Source: a bacterium (lineage in GTDB: Bacteria; CG2-30-53-67). From it: a DNA stretch of 43,553 nucleotides. The stretch's first letter is position 1; each line of letters opens with the position of its first letter. The position numbers and the translations under genes are program-made. Positions 262-41,150 of the stretch are shown here, piece after piece. The notes under the pieces are model-generated. The model had not been told where the DNA came from and did no database searches. It saw only the letters and a list, made by a program, of their open reading frames with translations. The stretch is taken from assembly GCA_024277725.1 (NCBI GenBank), contig JAJRUP010000138.1, positions 1 to 43,553 of the forward strand. The letters run 5' to 3'.

Positions 262-2304
262 ATGCGTAAACTGAAGTTCACCGTACTTACGATGATTCTT
301 GCAGGCTTCATGACGGCTTCCTCTTCCGCCATTCCCCCGGCGGAGGATCATCCGGAAAACAACCTGGAGATCCCCCCCTCCACAACAGCGGCGCAGGTCG
401 TTGCGCCGGAACGGGACGATCTTTCTCAGGCCTATGCCCGCTACCGGGATGCACGTTATGAAGAGGGAGCGAGGATCCTCGAAGTCTTCCTGACCACGCA
501 GATCAAACCCGATGAAAAAGAGGCCGCTCTCGTTCTTCTGGGCGAGTGTTACTATCACATGATCGATGAAAACCCGAAAGTAAACATGCAGCTGATGCTG
601 AATACCTATGAAAAGCTCACCCGGTTGTTTCCGAGTTCTCCTGCGGGGCCGAAGGCCCTCTACCGGGTTGCCGGAATCTTGTACAGACAGAAAATGTTTC
701 AAAAGGCCATCTTCCAGTATCGGAAGATCATGCGCCGATACCCGGATTCGTTTTATGTTGCACCTGCCATGTTCAACATGGGCAAGTCCCTGGTGAAGAT
801 CCAGGAGGAAGCCAAGGGACTGAAGGTCATCCAGGAGGTTGTCGAGAAATATCCCGAACATCCCGTGACTCAGGAGGTTCAGTCCTACCTGATCGATCAT
901 GATATGAAACTGAAAAAGTATCAAGAGGCTTTGCAACGTTTTGCGAAGATATCGTACGAGGTGATCCTGTACAATCCGAATCTTAGGCAGATGTATCCTG
1001 AACTGATGTTCCGGTTTGGTCGTTATCAGGAGGCAAGGGATGTCTATTTTAAATTGATCAATGTCTATCCCGATGATCCCCGTGCCTCATTCTGGATGGC
1101 AAGGATCGGGGATGCCTATGCCCGGGAGAAGAATGGGCAGGATGCAATAAAAATTTATTACCAAACCAAAAATCGTTTTCCCGGCAGTGAAGGAGAAATT
1201 CTGGCGGATTTGGGGATTCTCGACGTTCATTGTGAGGAACCTTCCCGGTTTCCCTTTCAAAAAATTGTCGAGGGATACGATCAACTTCTCGCGGATATTC
1301 CAAAGGGACCCCTACACAGTCTTGTGATGATGCGAAAGGCGATGATGTTCTACAAAAACAACTCCCTGCCGGAAGCGATTGCGTTATTGGATCAATTCTT
1401 CCGGGAATATCCGGAAAGTCCGTACGGGAAGAAATGTCAGGAAGTTTTGACGGATGCCTTTGCAAGACGGATCACGGCACTGTATCAGCAAGGTCGGTTT
1501 CCTGAAATCGTTGATCTGATGCAGAGAAATAAGCAATATCTGAAACTGGACGGACTCCCTTCCGTGCTCGCATGGAAAATTGCCGAGAGTCATTATCAGG
1601 TTGCCTTTTTTCATACGGCTTCCGTGATGATGGAGCGACTCCGGAAGCGGGATGCCGCGTACAGGATGAATGAGACGCTGCTCTTTCGGCTTGGTGAAAT
1701 CTATCTGGCCCAGGGTGCCGTCGAGCAATCCCGGGAGTTGTTCGATGCTCTGCTGAAACGTTTTCCGGAAAGCCGGTACCGGGGAGATGTGTACGCATTG
1801 AAGGGGCGGCGGGCCTTTCTCACCGGAGAGATGGATCAAACCATTCAATATTGTCGGCGTGCTCTCCGTGAGAAATGCCGGAGCCGCAGGGTGGATGCTT
1901 ATTATTACCTCGGGGCTGCACTGGCGGAACAGGGGGAAACGGAGCAGGCGCTCCAGGCTTATCAATCCGTGTTGACGAAGGGGCGAAATGATCCGTCGGC
2001 GCGGGAGAAGAAAATTCTGCCAAGCGCCCAATTTGCCATGGGAGATTTGCTGTACGATCTGGGGAGAAAGGAAGATGCCCGGGAAATTTATCAGGAAGCC
2101 GTGAAAAGCTATCCCGACGATCCGAACGCGGATTGGGCACAATATCGCATTGCCCTGATCCAGGCCGAAAAAGGGAACGCTGCGGCGGCGCTGAAAACTC
2201 TGGAAGGAATTGAAAAAAAGCCCGGGGAAGACCTTCTGGGGCTCCTGATTCGGACGGCCGGCAACGAAATCAAATGGCAACAGGACCTTCAAAAGTCGCT
2301 GTAA
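262..2304 (+). CDS. Exported TPR-repeat protein (680 aa)
   Basis: The product is a long tetratricopeptide-repeat protein, probably a periplasmic or envelope scaffold. I chose the ATG at 262 because it follows an AAGG-type ribosome site and opens directly into a signal peptide (basic MRKLK, hydrophobic stretch, then ASSSA near residue 23); an in-frame ATG at 223 would bury that signal. No lipobox cysteine is visible. From about residue 60 to the end there are successive helical repeats with TPR signatures, such as A-x-Y near Y-P-[DE]-[DS]-P turns (for example YPDSFYVAPAMFNMGK and YPDDPNADWAQYRIA). It lies 25 bp upstream of the FlrB-like kinase gene, so it is probably co-transcribed with the flagellar regulators. 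Its exact role is unknown; a surface or flagellar assembly scaffold is only a guess from context. Confidence 0.85.
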   Translation: MRKLKFTVLTMILAGFMTASSSAIPPAEDHPENNLEIPPSTTAAQVVAPERDDLSQAYARYRDARYEEGARILEVFLTTQIKPDEKEAALVLLGECYYHMIDENPKVNMQLMLNTYEKLTRLFPSSPAGPKALYRVAGILYRQKMFQKAIFQYRKIMRRYPDSFYVAPAMFNMGKSLVKIQEEAKGLKVIQEVVEKYPEHPVTQEVQSYLIDHDMKLKKYQEALQRFAKISYEVILYNPNLRQMYPELMFRFGRYQEARDVYFKLINVYPDDPRASFWMARIGDAYAREKNGQDAIKIYYQTKNRFPGSEGEILADLGILDVHCEEPSRFPFQKIVEGYDQLLADIPKGPLHSLVMMRKAMMFYKNNSLPEAIALLDQFFREYPESPYGKKCQEVLTDAFARRITALYQQGRFPEIVDLMQRNKQYLKLDGLPSVLAWKIAESHYQVAFFHTASVMMERLRKRDAAYRMNETLLFRLGEIYLAQGAVEQSRELFDALLKRFPESRYRGDVYALKGRRAFLTGEMDQTIQYCRRALREKCRSRRVDAYYYLGAALAEQGETEQALQAYQSVLTKGRNDPSAREKKILPSAQFAMGDLLYDLGRKEDAREIYQEAVKSYPDDPNADWAQYRIALIQAEKGNAAAALKTLEGIEKKPGEDLLGLLIRTAGNEIKWQQDLQKSL

Positions 2305-28853: not shown

Positions 28854-29606
28854 ATGAACAAGACACAACGGGCGACCTTGAATGTAACGGAAACCTTTGA
28901 CCCCTCCAAAAGGGATGAACTGATTCTGGCCTATGCGCCGCAGATCAAGTATATCGCCCATCGTCTGGCCATGCGTTTGCCGCCCCATGTCGAAGTGGAC
29001 GATTTGATCAGTTCCGGTGTGATCGGTCTCATCGATGCCATCGAGAAATTTGATCCGAGTCGGGAAATCCAGTTTAAAACCTATGCGGAATTCCGGATCA
29101 AGGGGGCGATGCTCGACGATCTTCGCTCCCAGGACTGGATCCCCCGTTCCGTACGGCAGAAGGCGGCGGCGTTGGAACGAACCTATGCCGAAATCGAGCA
29201 ACGGGAAGGACGTGCGGCGACGAATGAGGAAGTGGCCGAGGCCCTCGATATGACGATGGATGCTTTTTACGACCTTATGAGTCGGGTGAAAGGGCTCTCG
29301 TTGATCAGCATCGAATGCGGCGATGAGGACAATATCCTGAATCGAAGGATCTTTGAATCGCTCTCCGGTGACCCCGAGGACAATCCGCTCTCGTTTATTA
29401 AGAGAAAGGAGTTGCAGCAGATCATCGCCCGCAATATCGAGGCGCTACCGGAAAGCGAAAAGATGGTCGTCTCCCTCTATTATTACGATGAACTGACCAT
29501 GAAGGAGATTGGAAAAGTTCTTTCCATTACCGAATCACGGGTTTCCCAGATCCATACCCAGGCGATGCTGCGGTTGCGCGGAAAACTCAAGAAAGAATTA
29601 AAGTAA
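28854..29606 (+). CDS. fliA: Flagellar sigma factor FliA (sigma-28)
   Basis: FliA directs transcription of late flagellar and chemotaxis genes and is normally held by FlgM (not in this window). I start at ATG 28854, behind AGAGGATCAGG; an open frame reaches back to 28737 but only through a repeat element. The 250-aa product shows sigma region 2 (YAPQIKYIAHRLAMRLPPHVEVDDLISSGVIGLIDAIEKFDPSREIQFKTYAEFRIKGAMLDDLR as its familiar run), region 3 and region 4 with the helix-turn-helix LTMKEIGKVLSITESRVSQIHTQAMLRLRGKL. Length is normal. Confidence 0.95.
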   Translation: MNKTQRATLNVTETFDPSKRDELILAYAPQIKYIAHRLAMRLPPHVEVDDLISSGVIGLIDAIEKFDPSREIQFKTYAEFRIKGAMLDDLRSQDWIPRSVRQKAAALERTYAEIEQREGRAATNEEVAEALDMTMDAFYDLMSRVKGLSLISIECGDEDNILNRRIFESLSGDPEDNPLSFIKRKELQQIIARNIEALPESEKMVVSLYYYDELTMKEIGKVLSITESRVSQIHTQAMLRLRGKLKKELK

Positions 29607-29976: not shown

Positions 29977-31908
29977 ATGATGTTGCAGGTGGAACGGGAA
30001 CTTCAGGAGTTGCTCACTCAGCTGAGGGAGAAAGACCCTGCGTTGCGCAGGCAGGCCGCCCGTTTATTGGGGGTGACAGGCAATCCCAAGGCGGTCCCGG
30101 CCCTGGTCCGGGCGCTGGAAGATCCTCATCGCGGTTGTCAGGAAGCCGCCATGGATGCCCTCGTCCGCATTGATGGAGAAGAGACCATAAAGGAACTTAC
30201 GAGGCTGGCCTCCGGCGGGAAGGTCTACGCGCGAAATGCGGCGTTCGAAATTCTGGAACAGATCGGGCGGGATGTACCGGCACTCCTGATGCATCTTCTC
30301 GAGGATGAGAATGATACCATCCGGATCATTGCGGCCGGCATCTTTGGGCATCTGAAGACCGAAGAAGCGGTTCTCCCCCTGACGAAGCTTCTGTTCGATC
30401 ACAATCCCAACGTACGTTGTGCTGCACTGAACGCCTTGGGAACGATCGGTGACCGGGAAGCGCTCCCCAGCATCCGGGTGTATCTGGAGGATCCGGAAGA
30501 ATGGGTCCGCTTTTCCTGTATTCAGGCCCTGGGAAATCTTCGGGATCAGGTCTCCTTCCCGACACTGCTGAAACTTCTGGAGGGCGATGTTGCCGAACCG
30601 ATCTGCTGGGTGGCCGTGGAGGCACTGGGGAAGATCGGCGGTCTTAAAGCCGTGCCGAAAATGCTGGACCTGCTTCCCCGCGCCACACTGCTGGTGCAGC
30701 ACCAGATTGTGCATCATCTGGTCCGGATTGCGTTGGAACACCCCGGGGAAGATACAAGCCGGGTCGAAGCCTTCGCACCTTATGAGACATATTTTATCGA
30801 AGCCTTAAAAAGTCCACAGAAGGAAGTCCAGGATTCTGCGGTTCAGGGGTTGGAGTGGATCGGTACGGCTCAGGCCGTTGTTCCCCTGATGGCCTTCGCC
30901 CCGACCCTCCATGAATATACCGAAGAAGAGCGTGTCAACGGTCTTCGAAAGGCTTTAACGGCGATCGGCGAATCGGACGATCTTATACAGATTCTCTTCG
31001 AGGCGGCCTCTGCGGAGTGTTCGGACGAACTTTCCCTGAAGTTGGCCGGGGAGGTTCTGGGGAGATTGAAGGAAGTACGCGCCGTACCGGCCATTCTTCA
31101 ACATCTTACAGGATTCTCCGAGCCCGTTCGGCGTGTCATGACTCAGGCGTTGGGAAGGATCGGGGATCCCCTGGCCTGTCCGCCCCTGGTGGCGCTTTTG
31201 AAAGACGGAAACGGTCATGTGCGCAGGGAGGCTGCATGTTCGCTCGGCTGGATCGGCGACGAACAGGCTGTTCTTCCTCTATTTGAATCCCTCGATCGGG
31301 AGGAGTTCATGGATGTCCGGGAAACGATCCTGGATGCCCTCGTTGCCATCGGTGGAGCCCGGGTGAAGGAAAAATTCCGGGAATTCATCTTTTATCCTGA
31401 TCCCAACATCCAGGCTCTGGCCATCCAGGGAATCGGACTTTTGGGGGATACAGAGGCCTGTGATCACCTCATCGCCATCTTAGGGGATGAGAACGAACAG
31501 ATCCGCCTCAAAGTCGTCGAATGCCTGGGCAGGCTTGATTGCGACCGGATGATGGAACCGTTGATTTACGCCTTGAACGATGAAAATGAATAAGTGCGTC
31601 TTTCGGCAATTGCTGTCCTTTCCGAGCGTCCTTCGACAACGGTTGTGCGCTCTTTGATGGACGCACTCTATGACGGTAATCATTGGGTCGCCTTCAAGGC
31701 TGCCGATGCATTGGGTCGGATCGCCGACCCCATGGCGGTAGAAACAATGATGGACCTGCTGGAAGAAACCGAAGACGTCCCTTTGAAGGTTGCCTTGATC
31801 CGTGCCTTGAAGAAGATGGGCGATCCACGCTCTGAAACGATTCTGCGAAAGATGGAGCATGATCCGAACCCGGATGTCCGTACTCTTTTTGCGGAAGAAG
31901 GGGAGTAA
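29977..31908 (+). pseudogene. HEAT-repeat protein gene split by an in-frame TAA
   Basis: The frame from 29977 runs through at least a dozen HEAT/PBS-lyase type repeats of about 31 residues (pattern A-x-x-L-x-x-L-G-x-[IL]-[GK]-[DS]; for example ALNALGTIGDREALPSI and QALGRIGDPLACPPLV). A TAA at 31591-31593 breaks it in mid-repeat (LIYALNDENE-stop-VRLSAIAVLSE), and the same frame continues with two or three more repeats to 31908. A neighbouring repeat reads DENEQIRLK, so CAA (Gln) is the natural codon at the stop. A GTG directly after the TAA could allow restart, but there is no good ribosome site. The 538-residue first part may still fold. The start follows GGAGCAGGA. It is probably a scaffold tied to chemotaxis because the cheR start lies 4 bp after its stop; role unknown. 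Confidence 0.82.
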
Positions 31909-31912
31909 CCCG

Positions 31913-32806
31913 TTGACGCTGATACCTCCTGTCAATGATTATCTCAGATCCCGGCCGATGCGGCGGGAGGAGAAGATCCGGATTGACGCGAAATCCTTCC
32001 GGAATCTGAGTAAGATCATCTATGAACGCTCCGGCATTCATGTGATGGAGGGGAAAGAGTACCTGCTGGAAAACCGCCTCGCCAACCGGCTCAAGGTGAA
32101 CAACTGTAAGTCCTTTGAGGAGTATGATTATTTTCTCCGTTATGAACCGGGTGGTGAGAAGGAAATTACCCGGATGGTGGAGTGTATTACCACCAACGAA
32201 ACCTATTTTTTCCGGGAAAAAAGCCACTTCACGATGTTGCGGGAAGAGATTCTGCCGCAACTGATCGCAAAGAAACGGACCTCGGGCAACCCGACGATTC
32301 GGATCTGGAGTGCCGCCTCGTCCACGGGAGAGGAGCCCTACACCATTTCCATTCTGGTGGAAGAGATGAAAAAGGAGTTGTCGGGGGTGCGGGTCGAGAT
32401 CCTTGCAAGTGACATCAATAATTCGGTGATCCGGGCGGCCCGCAGAGGGATCTACGGGGACAATACCGTTCGCCATGTTCCGCCGGATATCCGGATGCGA
32501 TATTTTCGAAAGATTGATGGACGTTATCATCTGGACGAGAGGATCAAGTCGCGGGTCCGTTTTGCCCGTCTGAATCTGGTGGACGAAAACCGGCTGCGAA
32601 TTGCCGCCGGGATGGATATCATCTTCTGCAAAAATGTGTTGATCTATTTTGATCTGGCCGCCAAGAAAAAGGTCGTCGATTCACTGTATGATTCCCTCTT
32701 GCCGGGCGGGTACCTTTTGATCGGAAAATCGGAAGCCCTCCATGATATTTCACGGGCCTTCCATCCGGTGAAAATGAGAAACGGTCTGGTCTTTCAGAAG
32801 GAATAG
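31913..32806 (+). CDS. cheR: Chemotaxis methyltransferase CheR (TTG start)
   Basis: CheR methylates glutamates of chemoreceptors with S-adenosylmethionine. I choose TTG 31913: GAAGGGGAG lies 7-8 bases upstream, overlapping the end of the HEAT gene, while the ATG at 31958 lacks a ribosome site. This gives 297 aa. The N-terminal helical domain (FRNLSKIIYERSGIHVMEGKEYLLENRLANRL) is followed by ECITTNETYFFRE and the SAM-binding motif IRIWSAASSTGEEPYTISI, then DIIFCKNVLIYFD and a C-terminal SLLPGGYLLIGKSEAL. All are typical of CheR. No TPR extension is present. Confidence 0.93.
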   Translation: MTLIPPVNDYLRSRPMRREEKIRIDAKSFRNLSKIIYERSGIHVMEGKEYLLENRLANRLKVNNCKSFEEYDYFLRYEPGGEKEITRMVECITTNETYFFREKSHFTMLREEILPQLIAKKRTSGNPTIRIWSAASSTGEEPYTISILVEEMKKELSGVRVEILASDINNSVIRAARRGIYGDNTVRHVPPDIRMRYFRKIDGRYHLDERIKSRVRFARLNLVDENRLRIAAGMDIIFCKNVLIYFDLAAKKKVVDSLYDSLLPGGYLLIGKSEALHDISRAFHPVKMRNGLVFQKE

Positions 32807-32936
32807 CAGAGCTGCCTGTGAACCTGGGAGCGAAAGAAGTCATCGGACGGTGTGTATCGCGAATCCGTCACCGTATTAATGACGACGCTTCAGGGGGTGG
32901 GGAGGAGAAAAATTAGCATGCGGAAAGGGGTTCTTC

Positions 32937-33305
32937 ATGGCTATCCGAATTCTGGTCGTTGATGATGACAGCATTACGAGGAAGTTTGTCAGCTTCATTC
33001 TGAGATCGGAAGGGTTTGAAGTCATTGCCGCACAAGATGGAATGGAGGCTTTGGAGGTGATGGGAGGGACGGAGGTGGACCTGGTCATTACCGATCTTAA
33101 CATGCCGAAGATGGACGGGGCCGAATTGATCCGGACCATCCGGAATGGGACGGTACAGGCCGATCTGCCCATCATCATGTTGAGCACGGAGGCGGATGAA
33201 GAAAGCCGGAATCTTGTTTTTCAGGCCGGGGTATCGGAATACATGATCAAGCCCGTATCCCGGAAAGTACTGACGGACAAGGTGCGGGATTGTGTTAAGA
33301 ATTGA
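32937..33305 (+). CDS. CheY-like single-domain response regulator (first copy)
   Basis: This 122-aa protein is a lone receiver domain. Key residues are present: the acidic pair and Asp9-Asp11 cluster (LVVDDD), phospho-acceptor Asp53 in VITDLNMPKMDG, Ser/Thr at 83-84 and Lys105 in YMIKP. It may be a CheY or a phosphate sink beside the more canonical copy encoded 36 bp later. A 130-bp gap separates it from cheR; that gap has an inverted ACGGTG/CACCGT and no gene. Confidence 0.9.
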   Translation: MAIRILVVDDDSITRKFVSFILRSEGFEVIAAQDGMEALEVMGGTEVDLVITDLNMPKMDGAELIRTIRNGTVQADLPIIMLSTEADEESRNLVFQAGVSEYMIKPVSRKVLTDKVRDCVKN

Positions 33306-33341
33306 GCGAGATGGATCACCCTCAACGGAAGGACTAACCCC

Positions 33342-33722
33342 ATGATTAACACCAATATTGATGTCCTGGTGGTGGATGATTTTCCAACGATGCGGAAGAT
33401 TATCATGAACCTGCTCAAACAACTCGGCTTCAAGAAGATCAAGGAAGCCGAAAACGGTGAGCATGCATTGAGTGTGATTAAGCAAGGCACCATTGATTTT
33501 GTCATTACCGATTGGAACATGCCAAAGATGACGGGTATCGATCTGTTGAAAACGATCCGGGCGGACACCGATCTCAAGTCGATGCCGGTATTGATGGTGA
33601 CGGCCGAAGCCGACAAGTCGAGTATCATCCAGGCGATACAGGCGGGCGTCAATAATTACATCGTGAAACCTTTTACGGCGGAAACCCTGAAGGAAAAGAT
33701 CGAGAAGATCTTTTTGAACTAA
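33342..33722 (+). CDS. cheY: Chemotaxis response regulator CheY
   Basis: This 126-aa receiver matches canonical CheY in register as well as sequence: Asp12 and Asp13, phospho-acceptor Asp57 in [12 protein letters not shown], Thr87 and Lys109, the same numbering as Escherichia coli CheY. It should bind the FliM N-terminal peptide when phosphorylated by CheA and change motor rotation. It lies directly upstream of cheA (33 bp gap). Confidence 0.95.
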
Positions 33723-33755
33723 CGGCGTACGTTAATGATGTGGAGGTTCTGATTT

Positions 33756-35588
33756 ATGACTGAAGGGATGATCCCAGATGAAATGAAGGAAATCGTTGAG
33801 GATTTTATCAGCGAGACCCATGAGAGCCTGGACAATCTGGAGCCGACCTTTGTCGAGCTGGAAAAGGACCCGGGCAATCTGGAGTTAATCAACAGTGTCT
33901 TCCGTGTGGTTCATTCCCTGAAAGGCGCAGCGGATTTCCTGGGTTTTCCAAAGGTGGTGAAGATCGCCCACAAATCGGAAAGCCTTTTCAACCGGTTGCG
34001 TAAAGAGGAAATGGTCCTCACCCCGGAGATCATGGATGTGGTTTTTGAAGCGGTGGATGTTTTAAAAGCGCTCATTCATGAGATCGAAACCGGAGAGACT
34101 GCGGATGTTGATGTTGAGGGAACGGCCGATCGGTTGGTGGCGCTTTTGTCGGGTGAGAAATCGGAAAAGAATGATCCCCCCGTCCCACCGGCACCAGAGA
34201 CCCTCACGCCGGAGAGTGCGCCGCCGCAGGTCGACGTCTCCACCGTGGAGGATCCCCCTCCGGCGGAGACTGCGCCGGTATCGACCGGCGAGAACGAAAG
34301 CGAAGAGGCGGCCCCTCCCTCGTCCGAACCCGAACCGGAGCCGGTGCAGCAACAGGTCACAACGCCGCCGGCCCACAAGGAATTCCATGAGAGCGGGGTG
34401 GAACAGACGATCCGCGTTGAGGTGGAACGTCTTGATTCCGTGATGAATCTTGTGGGAGAACTCGTGCTGGCCCGGAACCGTCTGTTCAAGATCAATCACG
34501 ATCTGGAACAATCCTATGGGGAGGATACGCGGATTCAGGACCTCATCGACACGACCCTCCAGTTGAGTCTCCTGACCACCGACCTGCAACTGGCCGTACT
34601 CAAAACCCGCATGCAGCCGCTCAAAAAGGTCTTCAGCAAGATCCCCCGCATGATACGGGACCTGGCCCGGAAGATGATGAAGGAGGTTGATCTTCAGATT
34701 GTCGGTGAAGAGACGGAAGTGGACAAGTCGGTGATCGAGGCGATCGGTGATCCCCTGGTCCACCTGATTCGAAATGCCGTCGATCACGGAATCGAGATTC
34801 CTGATTTTCGCGTGCCCCTGGGGAAACCGGAAAAAGGGATGATTCGGGTTTCCGCCTCGTATGAGGGGGACCACATTCTTATTGATATTGAAGACGACGG
34901 AAAGGGCATGGACCCGGAACAGTTGCGGCAGACGGCTGTGGAGAAGGGCATCCTGGATGCCGCCGAAGCGGAACGTCTTTCCGTCAAGGAATGTTTCAAT
35001 CTGATCTTTGCTCCCGGATTCAGTACGGCCGCAAGGATTACCAGCACCTCCGGCCGGGGGGTCGGGATGGATGTCGTCAAGACCAATATCGCCAAGCTGA
35101 ACGGCTCCGTCAATGTCGAAAGCCAATTGGGGGTAGGGAGCAAATTCCGTATCCGGCTTCCTCTCACTGTGGCGATTATCCAGTCCCTGATGGTCGGAGT
35201 GGAAGAGGAGATCTATGCCATTCCCTTGAGTTCCGTCATCGAAACGTTGCGTGTGACACCGCAGGAGATCCAGACGGTTGATGACAAGGAGGTCATTACC
35301 CTGCGCGATGAGATCCTTCCTCTTGTGCATCTCTCCGAAAGGGTGGGACTGCCCCCGACGGCACTGGAGCAGCATGAGCAGATGTATGTGGTGGTGACGT
35401 CCGTGGCGGAAAAGAAGGTGGGGCTGATGGTGACGAAGCTTTATGGACAGGAAGAGATCGTCATTAAATCGCTGGGCAACTATCTCAAGGGCCATCCGGA
35501 GTTTTCCGGTGCTACATTGACGGGCGACGGAAAGGTCATCATGATTCTCGATATCGTCGGTTTGCAGAAACAACCGGTTCTGGCATGA
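33756..35588 (+). CDS. cheA: Chemotaxis histidine kinase CheA
   Basis: CheA is the signalling kinase that phosphorylates CheY and CheB. The 610-aa protein has an N-terminal Hpt domain with phospho-acceptor His53 (FRVVHSLKGAADFLGF), then a Pro/Glu-rich linker (about 135-210) where a CheY/CheB-binding P2 domain is normally found, a P3 dimerisation domain (RVEVERLDSVMNLVGELVLARNRL), the P4 ATPase domain (LVHLIRNAVDHGIE, DIEDDGKGMD, GRGVGMDVVKTNI) and a C-terminal CheW-like P5 domain. The lack of a visible P2 domain is the only oddity; such CheA proteins are known and should still phosphorylate their partners. Confidence 0.96.
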   Translation: MTEGMIPDEMKEIVEDFISETHESLDNLEPTFVELEKDPGNLELINSVFRVVHSLKGAADFLGFPKVVKIAHKSESLFNRLRKEEMVLTPEIMDVVFEAVDVLKALIHEIETGETADVDVEGTADRLVALLSGEKSEKNDPPVPPAPETLTPESAPPQVDVSTVEDPPPAETAPVSTGENESEEAAPPSSEPEPEPVQQQVTTPPAHKEFHESGVEQTIRVEVERLDSVMNLVGELVLARNRLFKINHDLEQSYGEDTRIQDLIDTTLQLSLLTTDLQLAVLKTRMQPLKKVFSKIPRMIRDLARKMMKEVDLQIVGEETEVDKSVIEAIGDPLVHLIRNAVDHGIEIPDFRVPLGKPEKGMIRVSASYEGDHILIDIEDDGKGMDPEQLRQTAVEKGILDAAEAERLSVKECFNLIFAPGFSTAARITSTSGRGVGMDVVKTNIAKLNGSVNVESQLGVGSKFRIRLPLTVAIIQSLMVGVEEEIYAIPLSSVIETLRVTPQEIQTVDDKEVITLRDEILPLVHLSERVGLPPTALEQHEQMYVVVTSVAEKKVGLMVTKLYGQEEIVIKSLGNYLKGHPEFSGATLTGDGKVIMILDIVGLQKQPVLA

Positions 35589-35625
35589 AGCGCGTTTGGG
35601 CCGGGCCGTCTCCATGGGAGAACAC

Positions 35626-36747
35626 ATGACAAAGCACAATGTGCATGCAAGGCAGACGGACAATGAGATCCGGGTCCTGGTCGTTGATGACTCTTTTTTC
35701 ATGCGGTCGCTGATCCGGAAATTTCTGGAATCCGACCCGGCGATCCGGGTGGTCGGTACGGCCCGAAACGGTCAAGAGGGCGTGAAAAAGGTCCTGGATC
35801 TTCATCCCGATGTAGTCACCCTCGATGTGGAGATGCCCGAAATGGACGGACTGTCCGCTTTGCTGGAGATCATGAAAAAGGCCCCCTGCCCGGTGATTAT
35901 GGTCAGTTCCGTCACCGAGGAAGGATCCCGGGCGACCTTCGATGCCCTGGATCTGGGTGCCGTAGATTTTATCCACAAAGTGCGTGACGGCGATATTTCG
36001 GGGATTATCCAGATTCGTGAGACGCTTATTCGGAAGGTAATGGGTTGTGCCTTATCCAATCCGTCCCCAAGAAAGAATCGGATGCCGTTTCCTCCGGTTA
36101 CGGAGAAGGTACAACCGGTACCGCGAGAGTCGTCGGTGATCGATGTGATCGTGATCGGCGCCTCGACCGGCGGCCCGAGCGCACTGCAGGATGTGATTCC
36201 TCGTCTGCCGGAAACCTTGGGGGCCGCCGTGATTCTTGTACAGCATATGCCGAAGGAATTTACACGGGCCTTTGCGGAGCGGTTGAACATGGTAAGCCGC
36301 CTTTCGGTCAAGGAAGCGGAGGAAGGGGACTCCATCGTCCCCGGGAGGGTCTTCATTGCACCGGGAGGCCGCCATCTGTCCGTGGAAAGACCCGCCGGGG
36401 AAGGCGGCAGGATCCATCTTTCCGACTCCCCGGCAGGTCTTCTTTACCGTCCCTCCGTGGATGTGGCCATGGAATCCATTGCACGGGCTTACCGGGAGAA
36501 GGCCCTGGGAGTGATCATGACGGGGATGGGGTGCGACGGCAAGGAAGGGATGGCGATGATCAAAAATTTCTCCGGAAGGACATTGGCCCAGGATCATGAG
36601 AGCTGTGTGGTGGATGGGATGCCCGGTTCCGCCGTAAACGCGGGTGTAGTCGAGGAACGGGTGCCGTTGAAGCGATTGGCGGAGAGCATCATGGAAATCG
36701 TTTATGGTGAAAAGGAGAATCACCTTCGAAAAGGAGTTCGGGCATGA
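35626..36747 (+). CDS. cheB: Chemotaxis methylesterase CheB
   Basis: CheB removes methyl groups and deamidates receptors when phosphorylated. I start at ATG 35626 (GGAG 5 bases upstream); earlier in-frame starts add residues without homology. The 373-aa product has a receiver domain (Asp67 in [12 protein letters not shown]), a linker, and a methylesterase domain with the catalytic set Ser180 (GASTGGP), His207 (VQHMP) and Asp304 (GMGCDGKEG). It is complete. Its TGA overlaps the chemoreceptor ATG, so the two are coupled. Confidence 0.96.
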
Positions 36748-38027
36748 GGATTACAATCGGTCACAAGCTTGTTCTGGCTGCGGTATTGATCACGGCGGGG
36801 ATCCTCCTGGTGAGCGGTGAGGCGCTGCTGAATCTTCGGGACATACAGGCCGGATATCAGGTGGAGCTCCAGCAATATTCGCAATCGAAAGAGCTCACCG
36901 CCGCTGCGGTGCGAACCGGTTCGGTTGCGAAGGCACTGCAAAACTTCAAGAAGAAGTTAATGATCATGGCGGGATTCCTGATCATTCTCTCCTGGGCAGT
37001 GGCCATGCTGCTGTATCGGAATATTATTACTCCCCTTCAACGGATTTCCATAATGGTCCGAAATGTGGCCGCCGGAGATTTCATGACCGACATCGAAGCC
37101 GTGGAGAGCCACGATGAACTGGGTGACCTCTATGGTGAAATGATGAAGCTCAAACAGAACCTGGGGGGGCTGATTGAGGGAGTGGCACAAAGCAGCGCTC
37201 ATCTGGCCTCGGCCTCGGAGGAGTTTTCCAGTGTCTCGACGCAGATGACCCGGCGGATGACGGACCAGGCCCGGCGAGGGGAGGAGATTTCGTCCGCGGT
37301 GGAAGAGATGAATTGTTCCATCCAGGGGGTGGCCCGGTCTGCCGAAGAATCGTCTCAGGCGGCGGAGGAGATGGTTCACCTTGTCCGGGAAGGAAACGAA
37401 AAAAATGAAGAGATTCAGACAACATTGAACCGGTTTTCAACGGTTCTTGCGCAGTCCTCTGAAATGAGCGCCGATCTCTCGCGAAAGAGTCAGGAGATTG
37501 GAAATATTACGAAGGTCATCGACGATATCGTGGAACAGACCCATCTTCTTGCCTTCAATGCCGCCATCGAGGCGGCCCATGCCGGTGAACAGGGGAGGGG
37601 GTTTGCCGTGGTCGCCGATGAAGTCCGGAAACTTTCGGAGCGGACCTCCAAGGCAACCAAGGAGATCGTGCAGATGATCGATCAGATCCAGACCGTCAGT
37701 GGTGACGCTGTGGTGAGTCTTTGTGATGGGATTGAACTGATGGAGGCGAGTTCGGAACGCAATCAGGAGAACAAGCTGCTTTTGCAGCAGATCCTCAGCA
37801 GTGTTGTTCAAGTGAAGGAGCAGGTACAGCAGATTTCCACATCCGCCCAGGAGGAAGCGAATACCTCCGGGATCATCTCGCAGAAGATTCAGGAGATTGC
37901 ACTTCTCGGCAGAGAGGCCTCCAACGAAGGGGAAAAATCTCGGAAGGCTTGTGAAAACCTGAGTCGCCTGGCAGCGGAGATGGAACGGGAGCTGTCGGTT
38001 TTCAAGGTGAATAAAAGGGGTGGATAA
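36744..38027 (+). CDS. Methyl-accepting chemotaxis protein with a very small periplasmic part
   Basis: This 427-aa chemoreceptor has two membrane segments (about 8-27 and 72-93) separated by only about 45 residues, too few for a usual ligand-binding domain. A HAMP-like region follows ([19 protein letters not shown]), then a long coiled coil and the signalling tip [37 protein letters not shown] (shown here as its recognisable run), and the return helix. No C-terminal CheR-tethering pentapeptide is seen. It overlaps cheB by 4 bp and lies inside the che operon, so it is probably a core receptor that senses membrane, energy state or a partner protein. Confidence 0.93.
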
Positions 38028-38075
38028 AGGATCGGTTTTTTAATTATATACCAAAGCGGTTTGGAGGAATGTGTT

Positions 38076-38924
38076 ATGACTGCAACGATTGAAGAAGTGA
38101 TCATGGAGGCCTGTGATCTGCCGGCGGTGCCCGACGTTGCCAACAAGGTGATGAAGCTCCTGGCCGATCCCAACACCTCCTCGGCGATGGTCTGCCGGAC
38201 CATCTCGGATGATCCGGCCCTGACGGCCCGGATCCTCAAAATTTCAAATTCCGCTTTTTACGGTTGCCTGCGGACGATCAACAATCTCCAGTCGGCCATC
38301 GTGATTATCGGGTATAGTGCCATCCGAAGTCTGGTGATCGCGGTTTCGACGAAGGAGGTCTACAAGAATTTCGGGCTGACGGAACGGATGCTCTGGGAGC
38401 ATTCGGTGGGGATGGGAATCGCCTCCCATATCCTGGCCAAGGAGGCCAAAATCAGCAAGGTCGATGATGTCTTCGTCTGCGGTCTCATGCACGACATCGG
38501 GAAGGTCATCATGAACAACAGTAACAGTGATCTCTACAATACTGTCATGGAACGGACCTACAATGAGGGGATTTCTGCGCTGGAAGCGGAACAGGACCTC
38601 TTTGGTTTTACCCATCCCGAAGTCGGGGGACTGGTGATCAAGAAGTGGAATCTCACCGATGAGCTGGAAAAGGCGGTGCAATTCCATCATGATCTGCAGA
38701 AGGTGGCCGGCGAGGATAAATACATTCTTACGCTTACCTCGATCATCAATCTTGCCGACACGATTTGCCGACGCCTGGGGATTGGGACCAAGGGGCCCGA
38801 TGAAGGCATCGATGTGAAGGGAACGGAGGCAGCAAAAACCCTGGGGTTCACGGCGGCACAACTCGACGAGTTGATCCCGATGATTGCAAAGACGTATAGC
38901 GAAGAAAAGAATATCTTTGAGTAA
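38076..38924 (+). CDS. HDOD domain protein
   Basis: HDOD proteins are HD-like signalling proteins that usually lack metal-binding residues. This 282-aa protein starts at ATG 38076 (GGAGGA about 9 bases upstream). It has the family pattern: LPAVPDVANKVMKLLADPNTSSAMVCRTISDDPALTARILKISNSAFYG near the N-terminus and later MHDIGKVIMNNS and HPEVGGLVIKKWNL. The HD pair in MHDIGK is kept, so weak hydrolase activity cannot be excluded. HDOD proteins are frequent in chemotaxis and c-di-GMP neighbourhoods; the exact target is unknown. Confidence 0.92.
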   Translation: MTATIEEVIMEACDLPAVPDVANKVMKLLADPNTSSAMVCRTISDDPALTARILKISNSAFYGCLRTINNLQSAIVIIGYSAIRSLVIAVSTKEVYKNFGLTERMLWEHSVGMGIASHILAKEAKISKVDDVFVCGLMHDIGKVIMNNSNSDLYNTVMERTYNEGISALEAEQDLFGFTHPEVGGLVIKKWNLTDELEKAVQFHHDLQKVAGEDKYILTLTSIINLADTICRRLGIGTKGPDEGIDVKGTEAAKTLGFTAAQLDELIPMIAKTYSEEKNIFE

Positions 38925-38949
38925 GCACTTCGGGGGGTTGGAGGACTTT

Positions 38950-39384
38950 ATGGAGATCAAGACGGACGAGAGGAAGTCGCTCTATACCATTCGTGTTGCA
39001 GCCGAACTTTCCGGTGTTTCCCCCGGAACAATACGTGAATACGAGCGTCAGGGATTGCTCCGGGTCTATCGGGATCCGAGCAGCCGTCATCGACTTTTCT
39101 CCGCCCTGGAAATCAACTGGGTGCGGCAGATCTGGCATCTCATTCATGAGGAGCGGCTCAATGTGGAGGGAATCCGGCGTCTCTTGACGGTCGTGCCCTG
39201 TTTTGAAATTGCCAAATGTTCCCGGGAAATACGGGAGGTCTGTCCCGTCGTCCGGGAGAAGGATCACCCCTGCTGGGCGTCAAAATGCCTGCCTCTGTGC
39301 TGTGGGGAGTCGGGGCGTAATTGCCAATCCTGCGAGGTGTATACGCTTTCTCAGCAGAATCCGGTGCTGATCCCGAAGGTATAA
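38950..39384 (+). CDS. MerR-like protein with a nine-cysteine C-terminal region
   Basis: The N-terminal 75 residues are a MerR-type winged helix-turn-helix (LYTIRVAAELSGVSPGTIREYERQGLLRVYRD, RHRLFSALEINWVRQI). The rest (residues 84-128) holds nine cysteines at 84, 90, 98, 108, 113, 117, 118, 125 and 128, with PC-F-x4-C, CPVV and PCW patterns like the so-called two-CW motif seen in other deltaproteobacterial proteins. A metal- or redox-sensing role is an inference. Start: ATG 38950 behind GGAGGAC; an in-frame ATG at 38884 lies inside the HDOD gene. It lies between the HDOD gene and cheW, an unusual place for a MerR regulator. The length is 144 aa. Confidence 0.85.
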   Translation: MEIKTDERKSLYTIRVAAELSGVSPGTIREYERQGLLRVYRDPSSRHRLFSALEINWVRQIWHLIHEERLNVEGIRRLLTVVPCFEIAKCSREIREVCPVVREKDHPCWASKCLPLCCGESGRNCQSCEVYTLSQQNPVLIPKV

Positions 39385-39455: not shown

Positions 39456-39926
39456 ATGTCTACGGAAGTCATTCAGGAGCATGTTGCCCAAAAAAACCTT
39501 GTGCAGTTGGTTACGTTTCACGTGGGCCGGGAAGAATATGCAGTGGATATTCTACGTGTCCAGGAGATTATCCGGCTCCAGGACATGACCCGGGTGCCCA
39601 ACACGCCGGATTACCTGAAGGGAGTGATCAATCTTCGAGGAAAGATCGTCCCCGTCATGGATCTTCGGAGCCGGTTCAGAATGGAAGCAATTGAGCTGGG
39701 GAAGGAAGCGAGAATTGTGGTCGTGGAAGATGCGGAGAAAAACGTCGGGTTGATCGTTGATTCCATGTCCGAGGTTTTGAGCATCCCCGATACCTTCATC
39801 CTGGCGCCGCCCGATAGTGGGGACGGCTCGGGCAATGTGGAGTTTATCCAGGGGGTGGCGAAGTTGGAGGACCGACTGCTGGTTTTTCTCAGCCTGGAAA
39901 CCCTCCTGGGAGAGCATGGCCTTTAA
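39456..39926 (+). CDS. cheW: Chemotaxis adaptor protein CheW
   Basis: CheW couples receptors to CheA in the core signalling array. The 156-aa product shows the family sequence throughout: VTFHVGREEYAVDILRVQEIIR, RVPNTPDYLKGVINLRGKIVPVMDLRSRF and EKNVGLIVDSMSEVLSIP. The length is normal. The start follows AAAAAGGGGGTGAGCA. The 71-bp gap before it has an inverted GCCGGGA/TCCCGGC (39388-39394, 39421-39427) that could be a local hairpin. Confidence 0.96.
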   Translation: MSTEVIQEHVAQKNLVQLVTFHVGREEYAVDILRVQEIIRLQDMTRVPNTPDYLKGVINLRGKIVPVMDLRSRFRMEAIELGKEARIVVVEDAEKNVGLIVDSMSEVLSIPDTFILAPPDSGDGSGNVEFIQGVAKLEDRLLVFLSLETLLGEHGL

Positions 39927-39938
39927 AGGGACAGGGGA

Positions 39939-41150
39939 ATGCTGAAGAAGATCCATATCAACGACCTGCAAATCGGCATGTATGTTGAGAAAGTGGATCG
40001 CTCCTGGATCGAGATCCCTTTCTTTAAAAAACATATCCGGTCTTTGCAACAGGTTGAAAAACTCCGGGAGTATCATGTCGAGGTCTTGTACGTGGATACG
40101 GAGAAGGGCGACTGGGTTGAATCGGCCCCGTCATCCGGACAGTGTCCCGTCCGGGAAGCGAAGACGGAACCGGGACCCGTCGAGGGGACGAAGACCGGGG
40201 AGATCCCCTCCATCTTTGATGCAGAGGAGATCCGGGTTGCCCGCGCCCTGCAGCAGCAGGCCGTGGAATGCGTCCAAGGGGTCTACCGGAATATTGCCGA
40301 AGAAGAATCTCCCGATCTGGAAGCCGCCGAAGAGGTGGTCGGCCGGATGATCCATCATATTACCCACCATCCCAATGTTCTCTTTACTCTGTCCAAACTA
40401 CAGGATTTCGACGAATATACCTTTATGCACTGTGTGAATGTTTCGACCTTCTCTCTGATTATCGGGAAGGCCTTGCATTATACCCAGAACGAGCTGAAAA
40501 AACTTGGTGTGGGAGCCTTGTTTCACGATGTGGGAAAGACCCGCGTGGACAAGAAGATCCTGAACAAGCCGGGCAAGCTTGATGCCGGGGAGTTGATGGT
40601 GATCCGGAAGCATCCTATTTTCAGTGTGGAACTGCTCCGGGAGGTCCCGGGGATGAGAATGGAAAGCATGCGGGTCGTCCTGGAACATCACGAACGTATC
40701 TCCGGGGGGGGCTATCCCCGGGGACTGAAGGGGAAGGAGATCTCCCCCTTCGGGCAGATCGCCGCCATTGCCGATGTTTACGATGCCATGACCACCGACC
40801 GGGTCTATCAGAAAAAGCTTCTGCCCTATGCAGCGGTTTCCCGCATCTACCGGATGACGAAAGAGAATTTCGATCCAGGCCTGGTGGAGCGATTTATTGC
40901 CCGGATCGGTGTTTATCCGGTGGGCACAGTGGTCGTCCTCTCTTCCGGTGAGATCGGAGTGGTAACGGAGATCCACCGTGATCATCTCCTCTCCCCCATT
41001 GTGCTGATCTTCGTTGACCCGGCGGGCAACAGGATCGAGACCCCGGACCGGATTGATCTGCTCCATGATCATCATAATCGCAAAATCGAGCAGGTGATTC
41101 ATCCGGAAGAGGCCGGCATCTCTCTGGAGGTATTGGTGAATAGCACCTGA
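39939..41150 (+). CDS. HD-GYP cyclic di-GMP phosphodiesterase with N-terminal DUF3391
   Basis: This 403-aa protein should hydrolyse cyclic di-GMP. Residues 1-60 match the DUF3391 pattern (HINDLQIGMYVEKVDRSW, VLYVDTEKG). After a linker, the HD-GYP domain (about 140-340) keeps HD in LFHDVGK (His196, Asp197), KHPIFSVELL, LEHHER and the GYP signature GGGYPRGLKGKEIS (258-260), plus FGQIAAIADVYDAMTTDR. All metal ligands seem present, so it is probably active. It begins 12 bp after cheW, which ties cyclic di-GMP turnover to chemotaxis or motility control. Confidence 0.95.
   Translation: MLKKIHINDLQIGMYVEKVDRSWIEIPFFKKHIRSLQQVEKLREYHVEVLYVDTEKGDWVESAPSSGQCPVREAKTEPGPVEGTKTGEIPSIFDAEEIRVARALQQQAVECVQGVYRNIAEEESPDLEAAEEVVGRMIHHITHHPNVLFTLSKLQDFDEYTFMHCVNVSTFSLIIGKALHYTQNELKKLGVGALFHDVGKTRVDKKILNKPGKLDAGELMVIRKHPIFSVELLREVPGMRMESMRVVLEHHERISGGGYPRGLKGKEISPFGQIAAIADVYDAMTTDRVYQKKLLPYAAVSRIYRMTKENFDPGLVERFIARIGVYPVGTVVVLSSGEIGVVTEIHRDHLLSPIVLIFVDPAGNRIETPDRIDLLHDHHNRKIEQVIHPEEAGISLEVLVNST

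Follow-up and report, generated by a model that had tools for sequence, protein, structure and literature searches.

A MerR-family protein with a distant two-CW cysteine domain, encoded among flagellar and chemotaxis genes, may link motility to metal or redox state

The window analysed in this work is a stretch of 43,553 nucleotides (contig JAJRUP010000138.1) from a bacterium of the CG2-30-53-67 lineage, and the gene under study occupies positions 38950–39384 of its plus strand, where the translation gives a protein of 144 amino acids with no stop inside the frame. Among named sequences the locus is closest to L042 and L043, which are metagenome-assembled contigs labelled uncultured Nitrospirae bacterium, of CG2-30-53-67 types. 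The ATG at 38950 is supported as the start, because a ribosome-binding site read from the sequence (GGAGG, 38940–38944, plus strand) begins 10 bp 5' of it and because the L042 and L043 proteins begin at the same residue. The gene belongs to a co-directional run in the order cheR, cheY, cheY, cheA, cheB, methyl-accepting chemotaxis protein (MCP), HDOD, MerR/two-CW gene, cheW, HD-GYP-type gene. The first five (31859–36747, plus strand) are named from reading their sequences, with no family search, and their order is the same in L042 and L043 with 55–74% identity (tblastn). They are followed on the same strand by the MCP gene (36744–38027; PF00015, E 3.9e-38). A first-pass annotation, made from the sequence alone, had placed the regulator gene between HDOD and cheW genes, and family searches bear this out: the HDOD gene (38061–38924, plus strand; PF08668, E 2.6e-57) lies 25 bp upstream, and cheW (39456–39926, plus strand; PF01584, E 3.5e-39) lies 71 bp downstream, ahead of a DUF3391/HD-domain (HD-GYP-type) gene (39939–41150, plus strand; PF11871, PF13487). 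Flagellar genes lie 5' in the window, including those for a FliI-type ATPase, FliM and an FlhF-type GTPase (Pfam) and FlhA (search), the others being recognized by eye. A sigma factor gene (28857–29606, plus strand; Sigma70 regions 2, 3 and 4) is of FliA type by position, and because it follows flhA and flhF we infer that it is FliA. A HEAT-repeat protein is encoded immediately 5' of cheR (29977–31908), and this order is kept in a genome of the same genus, G001, with 77% DNA identity over a stretch including cheR. The G001 contig ends within the second cheY, so the absence of the regulator from G001 is uninformative.

The N-terminal half of the protein is a MerR-type winged helix–turn–helix (HTH; residues 12–79, 38983–39186, plus strand), matched by the Pfam models MerR_1 (E 2.5e-13, 50.4 bits against a cut-off of 21.6) and MerR (E 4.7e-11, 42.7 bits against 28.2). 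Judged by the sequence of this domain, the protein belongs to the MerR family, as the first-pass annotation had proposed. That annotation had also suggested modelling the cysteine cluster. Of two AlphaFold runs with 81 sequences, one gave the HTH block-mean pLDDT values of 75–95, and in neither was the tail, with block means of 64 at most, modelled with confidence. MerR-family proteins have a long dimerisation helix after the HTH, known members carry metal, drug or B12 domains as C-terminal parts, and the operator of the family sits in an over-long promoter spacer. The window protein shares the N-terminal winged HTH with this family, but the long post-HTH helix is absent from both models, in a region where the block-mean pLDDT does not exceed 64, and its C-terminal part is a two-CW tail instead of one of the known domains. 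Like SoxR, MerR, CueR and ZntR it has a MerR HTH followed by cysteines, and by analogy it may work as these metal or redox sensors do, although its cysteine pattern is unlike theirs; the MerR, ZntR and CueR models covered at most residues 12–89 of the window protein, all with scores below their cut-offs.

The closest relatives of the HTH lie elsewhere in the family. The top NCBIfam match is HspR (NF047375, residues 10–82), with 57 bits, and the best solved-structure matches to the family profile are GlnR (E 4.1e-16) and TnrA, restricted to the HTH and leaving the cysteine domain unmatched. GlnR and TnrA are nitrogen regulators answering glutamine synthetase, and the activity of HspR and of GlnR/TnrA is governed through partner proteins. 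Identity with HspR was ruled out, since the 57 bits do not reach the 105-bit cut-off of that model, and the window protein also differs from HspR by its cysteine domain and its motility context. A protein acting in the manner of HspR on heat-shock or protein-stress genes, thereby linking stress to motility with the tail as an accessory, would agree with the top NCBIfam match, but the score is far below the cut-off, a further MerR protein of the window genome (L026) is devoid of a cysteine tail, HTH-only matches (not named by family search) are present in G003 and G005, and no chaperone gene was recognized among the named neighbours of the window and clade loci. We consider this explanation very improbable.

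The C-terminal part contains nine cysteines, at positions 84, 90, 98, 108, 113, 117, 118, 125 and 128. The motifs PCFEIAKC, CPVV and PCW and the CC pair recognized in the first-pass annotation are all present, and beyond them there is a closing CxxC. With the cysteine rate of 0.73% measured over 20 plus-strand open reading frames of the window of at least 250 amino acids, the probability of at least nine cysteines in this 61-residue tail is about 7e-10 (a post hoc test). The cysteine domain spans residues 84–131 (39199–39342, plus strand), with C84, C90, C98, C108-W109, C117-C118, C125 and C128 as landmarks; it is defined by cysteine conservation and by the profile comparison described below, the structural model being of low confidence there. 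Conservation was read from 84 rows, composed of the window protein, the best 80 of 384 confirmed matches and three further loci. Because selection of the 80 loci went by resemblance to the entire protein, the presence of a tail in them is partly built in. C84, C90, C98, C108, C125, C128 and W109 are invariant in all 84 rows, and every row has exactly eight cysteines drawn from one set of nine positions. The eighth cysteine lies in the tail in the clade of the window protein, where the CC pair is present and residue 60 is not a cysteine (11/11), whereas in the other 73 rows it is at residue 60, within the HTH domain, and a single cysteine stands in place of the pair (73/73). At columns 117 and 118 this single cysteine shifts column with the alignment, which does not affect the count of eight. 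C113 is private to the window protein (1/84 rows), so that of the nine-cysteine tail noted earlier the nine residues are indeed there, but only eight are conserved in the clade. The first-pass annotation had named loss of the cysteines in homologues at the same gene position as counting against its reading; L042 and L043, in the same HDOD–CheW position, keep eight of the window's nine. Between L042 and L043, dN/dS is about 0.18 overall and 0.34 in the tail, pairs with the window being saturated. Eight cysteines would be compatible with two sites of four ligands each, or with a cluster plus a single site.

A likeness of this tail to a two-CW metal-binding motif had been noticed at first reading, and it proves to be a homology, although a distant one. 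Positions 2–79 of the 80-position model NF045718 (two_CW_domain) align to residues 83–136, with 8.4 bits (E 2.7) against a cut-off of 35 bits, and this model matches 74 of 81 rows at E values up to 10, the best being 0.0014. When a profile of 24 MerR tails was aligned by hhalign to a profile of 10 two-CW domains, eight from the window genome and two from the family members G002 and G004, the probability was 97.4 and the E value 1.2e-11, and the seven core cysteines all lined up. In addition, residues 80–139 of the window protein match a kinase frame of 435 aa in the window genome (E 1.2e-6). In whole genomes at E 1e-3 the ten-domain profile missed the window gene and had no match in six genomes of the motility clade; the only MerR genes that it matched are those of G046 (E 8.8e-5) and G048 (E 6.5e-4). 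Because of this miss and of the low NF045718 score, we class the tail, from its sequence, as a distant two-CW domain, by homology rather than by curated score. The seven core cysteines and the second CW (C108-W109) align with those of the long frames and of the stand-alone two-CW proteins, while the window tail differs in its shorter spacing, in having C84-F85 in place of the first CW (many homologues have both) and in being fused to a MerR HTH. The possibility that the tail was acquired from kinases, and not inherited with the HTH, was rejected: the 11 motility tails scored a median of 43.3 bits with a profile of the 73 other MerR tails and 18.8 bits with a two-CW profile made of 12 domains from frames of at least 190 aa, profiles of different depths, three of the 12 domains being of a long-linker type and perhaps not from kinases. 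A relative beyond the 84 rows and in another genome, L008, encodes a MerR protein (1144–1857, minus strand; 35% identity) in which only the first half of the two-CW tail is present and leads in frame into a Nitro_FeMo-Co domain (PF02579, E 4.9e-18), a domain that, from its name, is presumably linked to metal-cluster handling; this fusion, although a single case, favours a metal theme.

The window genome has seven NF045718 matches, five of them above the cut-off, in four short proteins (frames of 84–125 aa) and in frames of 710, 960 and 391 aa. The short, stand-alone two-CW proteins are on contigs C168, C239, C170 and C112 of this genome (G000), and the two-CW profile matches 13 times in G046, its MerR gene included. 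Two long frames were scanned with Pfam: in the 435-aa frame, which has HisKA and HATPase domains, the two-CW domain is N-terminal to HisKA, and the 960-aa frame has HAMP, PAS and two-CW domains and then a HisKA match just below the cut-off. The position of the domain ahead of HisKA, which is the place expected of a sensory part, argues for a sensory function. It also argues against the main rival explanation, in which the cysteines bind only structural zinc, the tail being a zinc-held dimerisation or protein-contact module, and the protein answers another signal, for example a partner in the chemotaxis array or a kinase. Stand-alone small two-CW proteins would likewise be odd for a mere dimerisation module. 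On the other side, small cysteine-rich domains often bind structural zinc, the conservation of eight cysteines in 84/84 rows would also fit a rigid site, and the nearest relatives of the HTH, HspR by NCBIfam and GlnR/TnrA by structure, are partner-governed. No PDB sequence was significantly related to the tail; the top phmmer match, at a non-significant E value of 0.16, was a stretch of BTK that we take to be its zinc motif, a hint in the same direction. Nor did the ten two-CW domains match anything in Pfam better than E 0.012. We regard structural zinc with another signal as a real possibility, though less likely than our preferred reading. Our preferred reading separates into parts of different strength: the cysteines very probably bind a cofactor, and we lean towards this cofactor being the sensed element rather than a structural one.

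In a maximum-likelihood tree of 88 rows, the window protein and ten others form one group with support 100/98, in a tree with few columns, an unsettled bootstrap and outgroups on long branches. All 11 genes of this clade lie in flagellar or chemotaxis clusters, in three arrangements. Three of them are in a che run of the window type. Six are divergent from flgF-flgG, five of these being directly 5' of motA-motB, while in the sixth locus (L046) the contig stops after the regulator gene. The remaining two, L047 and L048, follow parA- and cheW-like genes: in L047 the regulator gene is followed by another cheW match and by flgF-flgG-flgA-flgH, and in L048 MCP, HDOD and MCP genes are upstream and the contig stops after the regulator gene. 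The link to motility genes proposed from the window locus thus extends to 11/11 clade members. These are not eleven independent events, since the clade shares one origin, but the existence of three arrangements argues for a functional tie rather than for one frozen operon. At an E value of 1e-10, none of the 73 loci outside the clade had flagellar or che neighbours, in a tblastn search made with window and L044 proteins only, in which positive controls worked and the control loci were at least 3.4 kb long (mean 15.1 kb); one weak cheB match, at E 1e-6, was present in L055. Outside the clade the neighbours are unrelated, many loci having a penicillin-binding protein gene or atpB (names read from sequence). 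In five of the loci, L051, L068, L077, L055 and L061, the two-CW MerR gene is directly, or a few genes, 5' of pilC-like genes of type IV pili, with pilS and pilR after the pilC-like gene in four of the five, these names also being read from sequence.

The association with flagella does not extend to two-CW MerR proteins in general. A full-length profile at E 1e-20 matched 132 of 395 Nitrospirota genomes, eight at 233–266 bits, which are those of the motility clade, and the rest at 124 bits or less. FlhA (E 0.001) was found in 7/8 motility-clade genomes and in 60/124 of the other carriers, compared with 169/263 Nitrospirota genomes with no regulator match. Taken together, carriers are less often flagellate than non-carriers (odds ratio 0.57, P 0.012, species not being independent), and a general link between two-CW MerR proteins and flagella was therefore rejected; the link is confined to the motility clade. 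FlhA had no match in G045, yet the regulator locus of this genome includes MCP and CheW genes.

The six loci in which the regulator gene diverges from flgF (L044, L045, L046, L161, L162 and L163) share an intergenic region with a conserved order of elements, which is, starting from flgF, a sigma54-like site, paired TGCC boxes, an inverted-repeat-like element and a sigma28-type promoter. We named the promoter sites from what we take to be the sigma54 and sigma28 consensus sequences. The sigma54-like site, GG-N10-GC, faces flgF in the six regions. The sigma28-type promoter, TAAAGT-N14-CCGATA, stands ahead of the regulator gene in 6/6 loci, exactly in five and with one mismatch in one; it has the usual spacing and the inverted repeat upstream. 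At up to one mismatch this match is unique in each locus, compared with 0.4 matches for all six loci together in shuffles, and the exact pattern occurs 11 times in the six genomes, five times at these loci, compared with two occurrences of the reversed control. The sequence TGGCAC-N5-TTGCT is exact at its place in these regions in 4/6 loci and has one mismatch in the other two. At up to two mismatches it has 29 matches in the six loci (shuffled mean 20.8, largest 26), so that what speaks for it is the constancy of its position. The distance from the inverted-repeat-like element to the sigma28-type promoter, which lies 3' of it, is 43–44 bp in 6/6 loci, the intervening sequence being poorly conserved. 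A degenerate pattern for it found, in 11 genomes, the six source sites, which are there by construction because the pattern was written from them, and two strays, compared with one match of the reversed control. It had no match in the genomes of the window and of L042, nor in G044 or G045, and one match in the L043 genome (G005), on another contig. From its sequence and place this element looks like a putative site for a factor acting on operons of the flgF/merR type, perhaps the regulator itself, though it may be another factor. The paired TGCC boxes, conserved in the six regions between the sigma54-like site and the inverted repeat, are perhaps candidate activator sites for the sigma54 promoter.

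The operator that the first-pass annotation had proposed to look for was not found at the window locus: neither promoter nor operator was detected near the window gene, which is internal to a long run. The sigma28 pattern at up to two mismatches had four matches in the window (shuffled mean 1.8, largest 6), none of them 5' of the che run, and the L044 inverted-repeat pattern, with as many as three mismatches allowed, had two, with 2.0 expected. The promoter pattern of the non-clade rows had no match in the window, where the corresponding matrix reached at most 3.9, compared with a median score of 53.8 for the sites of its own. In the non-clade loci (L053–L120), a CTTGC(A/T)TTT-type motif is present upstream of the MerR gene in 38/73 cases, and 37 such sites when stacked give a promoter-like consensus that is perhaps an autoregulatory promoter. 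The outcome of the operator search at the window gene, like the unrelated neighbours of the non-clade genes, is what would be expected of a passenger gene, whose targets are elsewhere and which, caught in motility operons, stays there for the timing of its expression. The three motility arrangements within one clade, with 0/73 outside it, argue instead that the gene moved among motility genes and did not enter one operon once, and we judge the passenger explanation improbable. That the window protein is a DNA-binding regulator of motility genes is, in our view, probable.

We propose, as a reading to which we give about an even chance, that this MerR-family regulator of motility genes binds a metal cofactor through its two-CW domain and thereby senses redox or metal state. 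The cofactor, the signal, the direction of regulation and the targets are conjectural parts of this model. A small cytoplasmic protein belonging to the flagellar and chemotaxis gene set would bind DNA as a dimer through its N-terminal HTH, with the two-CW domain standing where a ligand-binding domain would be. The eight conserved cysteines of each chain would hold a metal cofactor, most likely an Fe-S cluster or a zinc/thiolate site, and oxidation, loss or exchange of this cofactor would alter DNA binding and so adjust the motility genes. The targets would be the regulator's own operon with motAB in those Nitrospirota that have this arrangement, and its own che run in the window lineage. In the motAB arrangement, the sigma28-type promoter 5' of the regulator gene suggests a feedback late in flagellar assembly, by which stator or chemotaxis output would be trimmed to redox or metal state.

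More tentatively, and with less confidence than we have in the model itself, these proteins could form a novel class of flagellar regulators that sense redox or metal state in the cytosol. The two-CW cofactor would be common to them and to histidine kinases of the same cell, the proteins of the motility clade would be made late in assembly and would adjust stators and the chemotaxis array to the redox state of the cell by feedback, and the position of the eighth cysteine would reflect the way in which DNA binding is coupled to the cofactor. The locus combines an HTH of known type with a domain that is known but has yet to be characterised; for such a combination in a motility setting, no published report appeared among the matches listed in a broad search of the literature, as far as it was accessible. 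A DNA-binding regulator with a conserved cysteine tail amid motility genes suggests that swimming may be tuned to the metal or redox state of the cell, sensing itself being a guess. With its candidate sites, the intergenic region of flgF/merR/motAB offers DNA ready for use in binding tests. If the model is correct, the two-CW domain, for which the literature searched gave a name but no function and among whose listed matches no paper on the domain was found, would gain a testable function, and in Nitrospirota and their kin, here represented mostly by metagenome assemblies, redox or metal state would act on motility by a direct transcriptional route.
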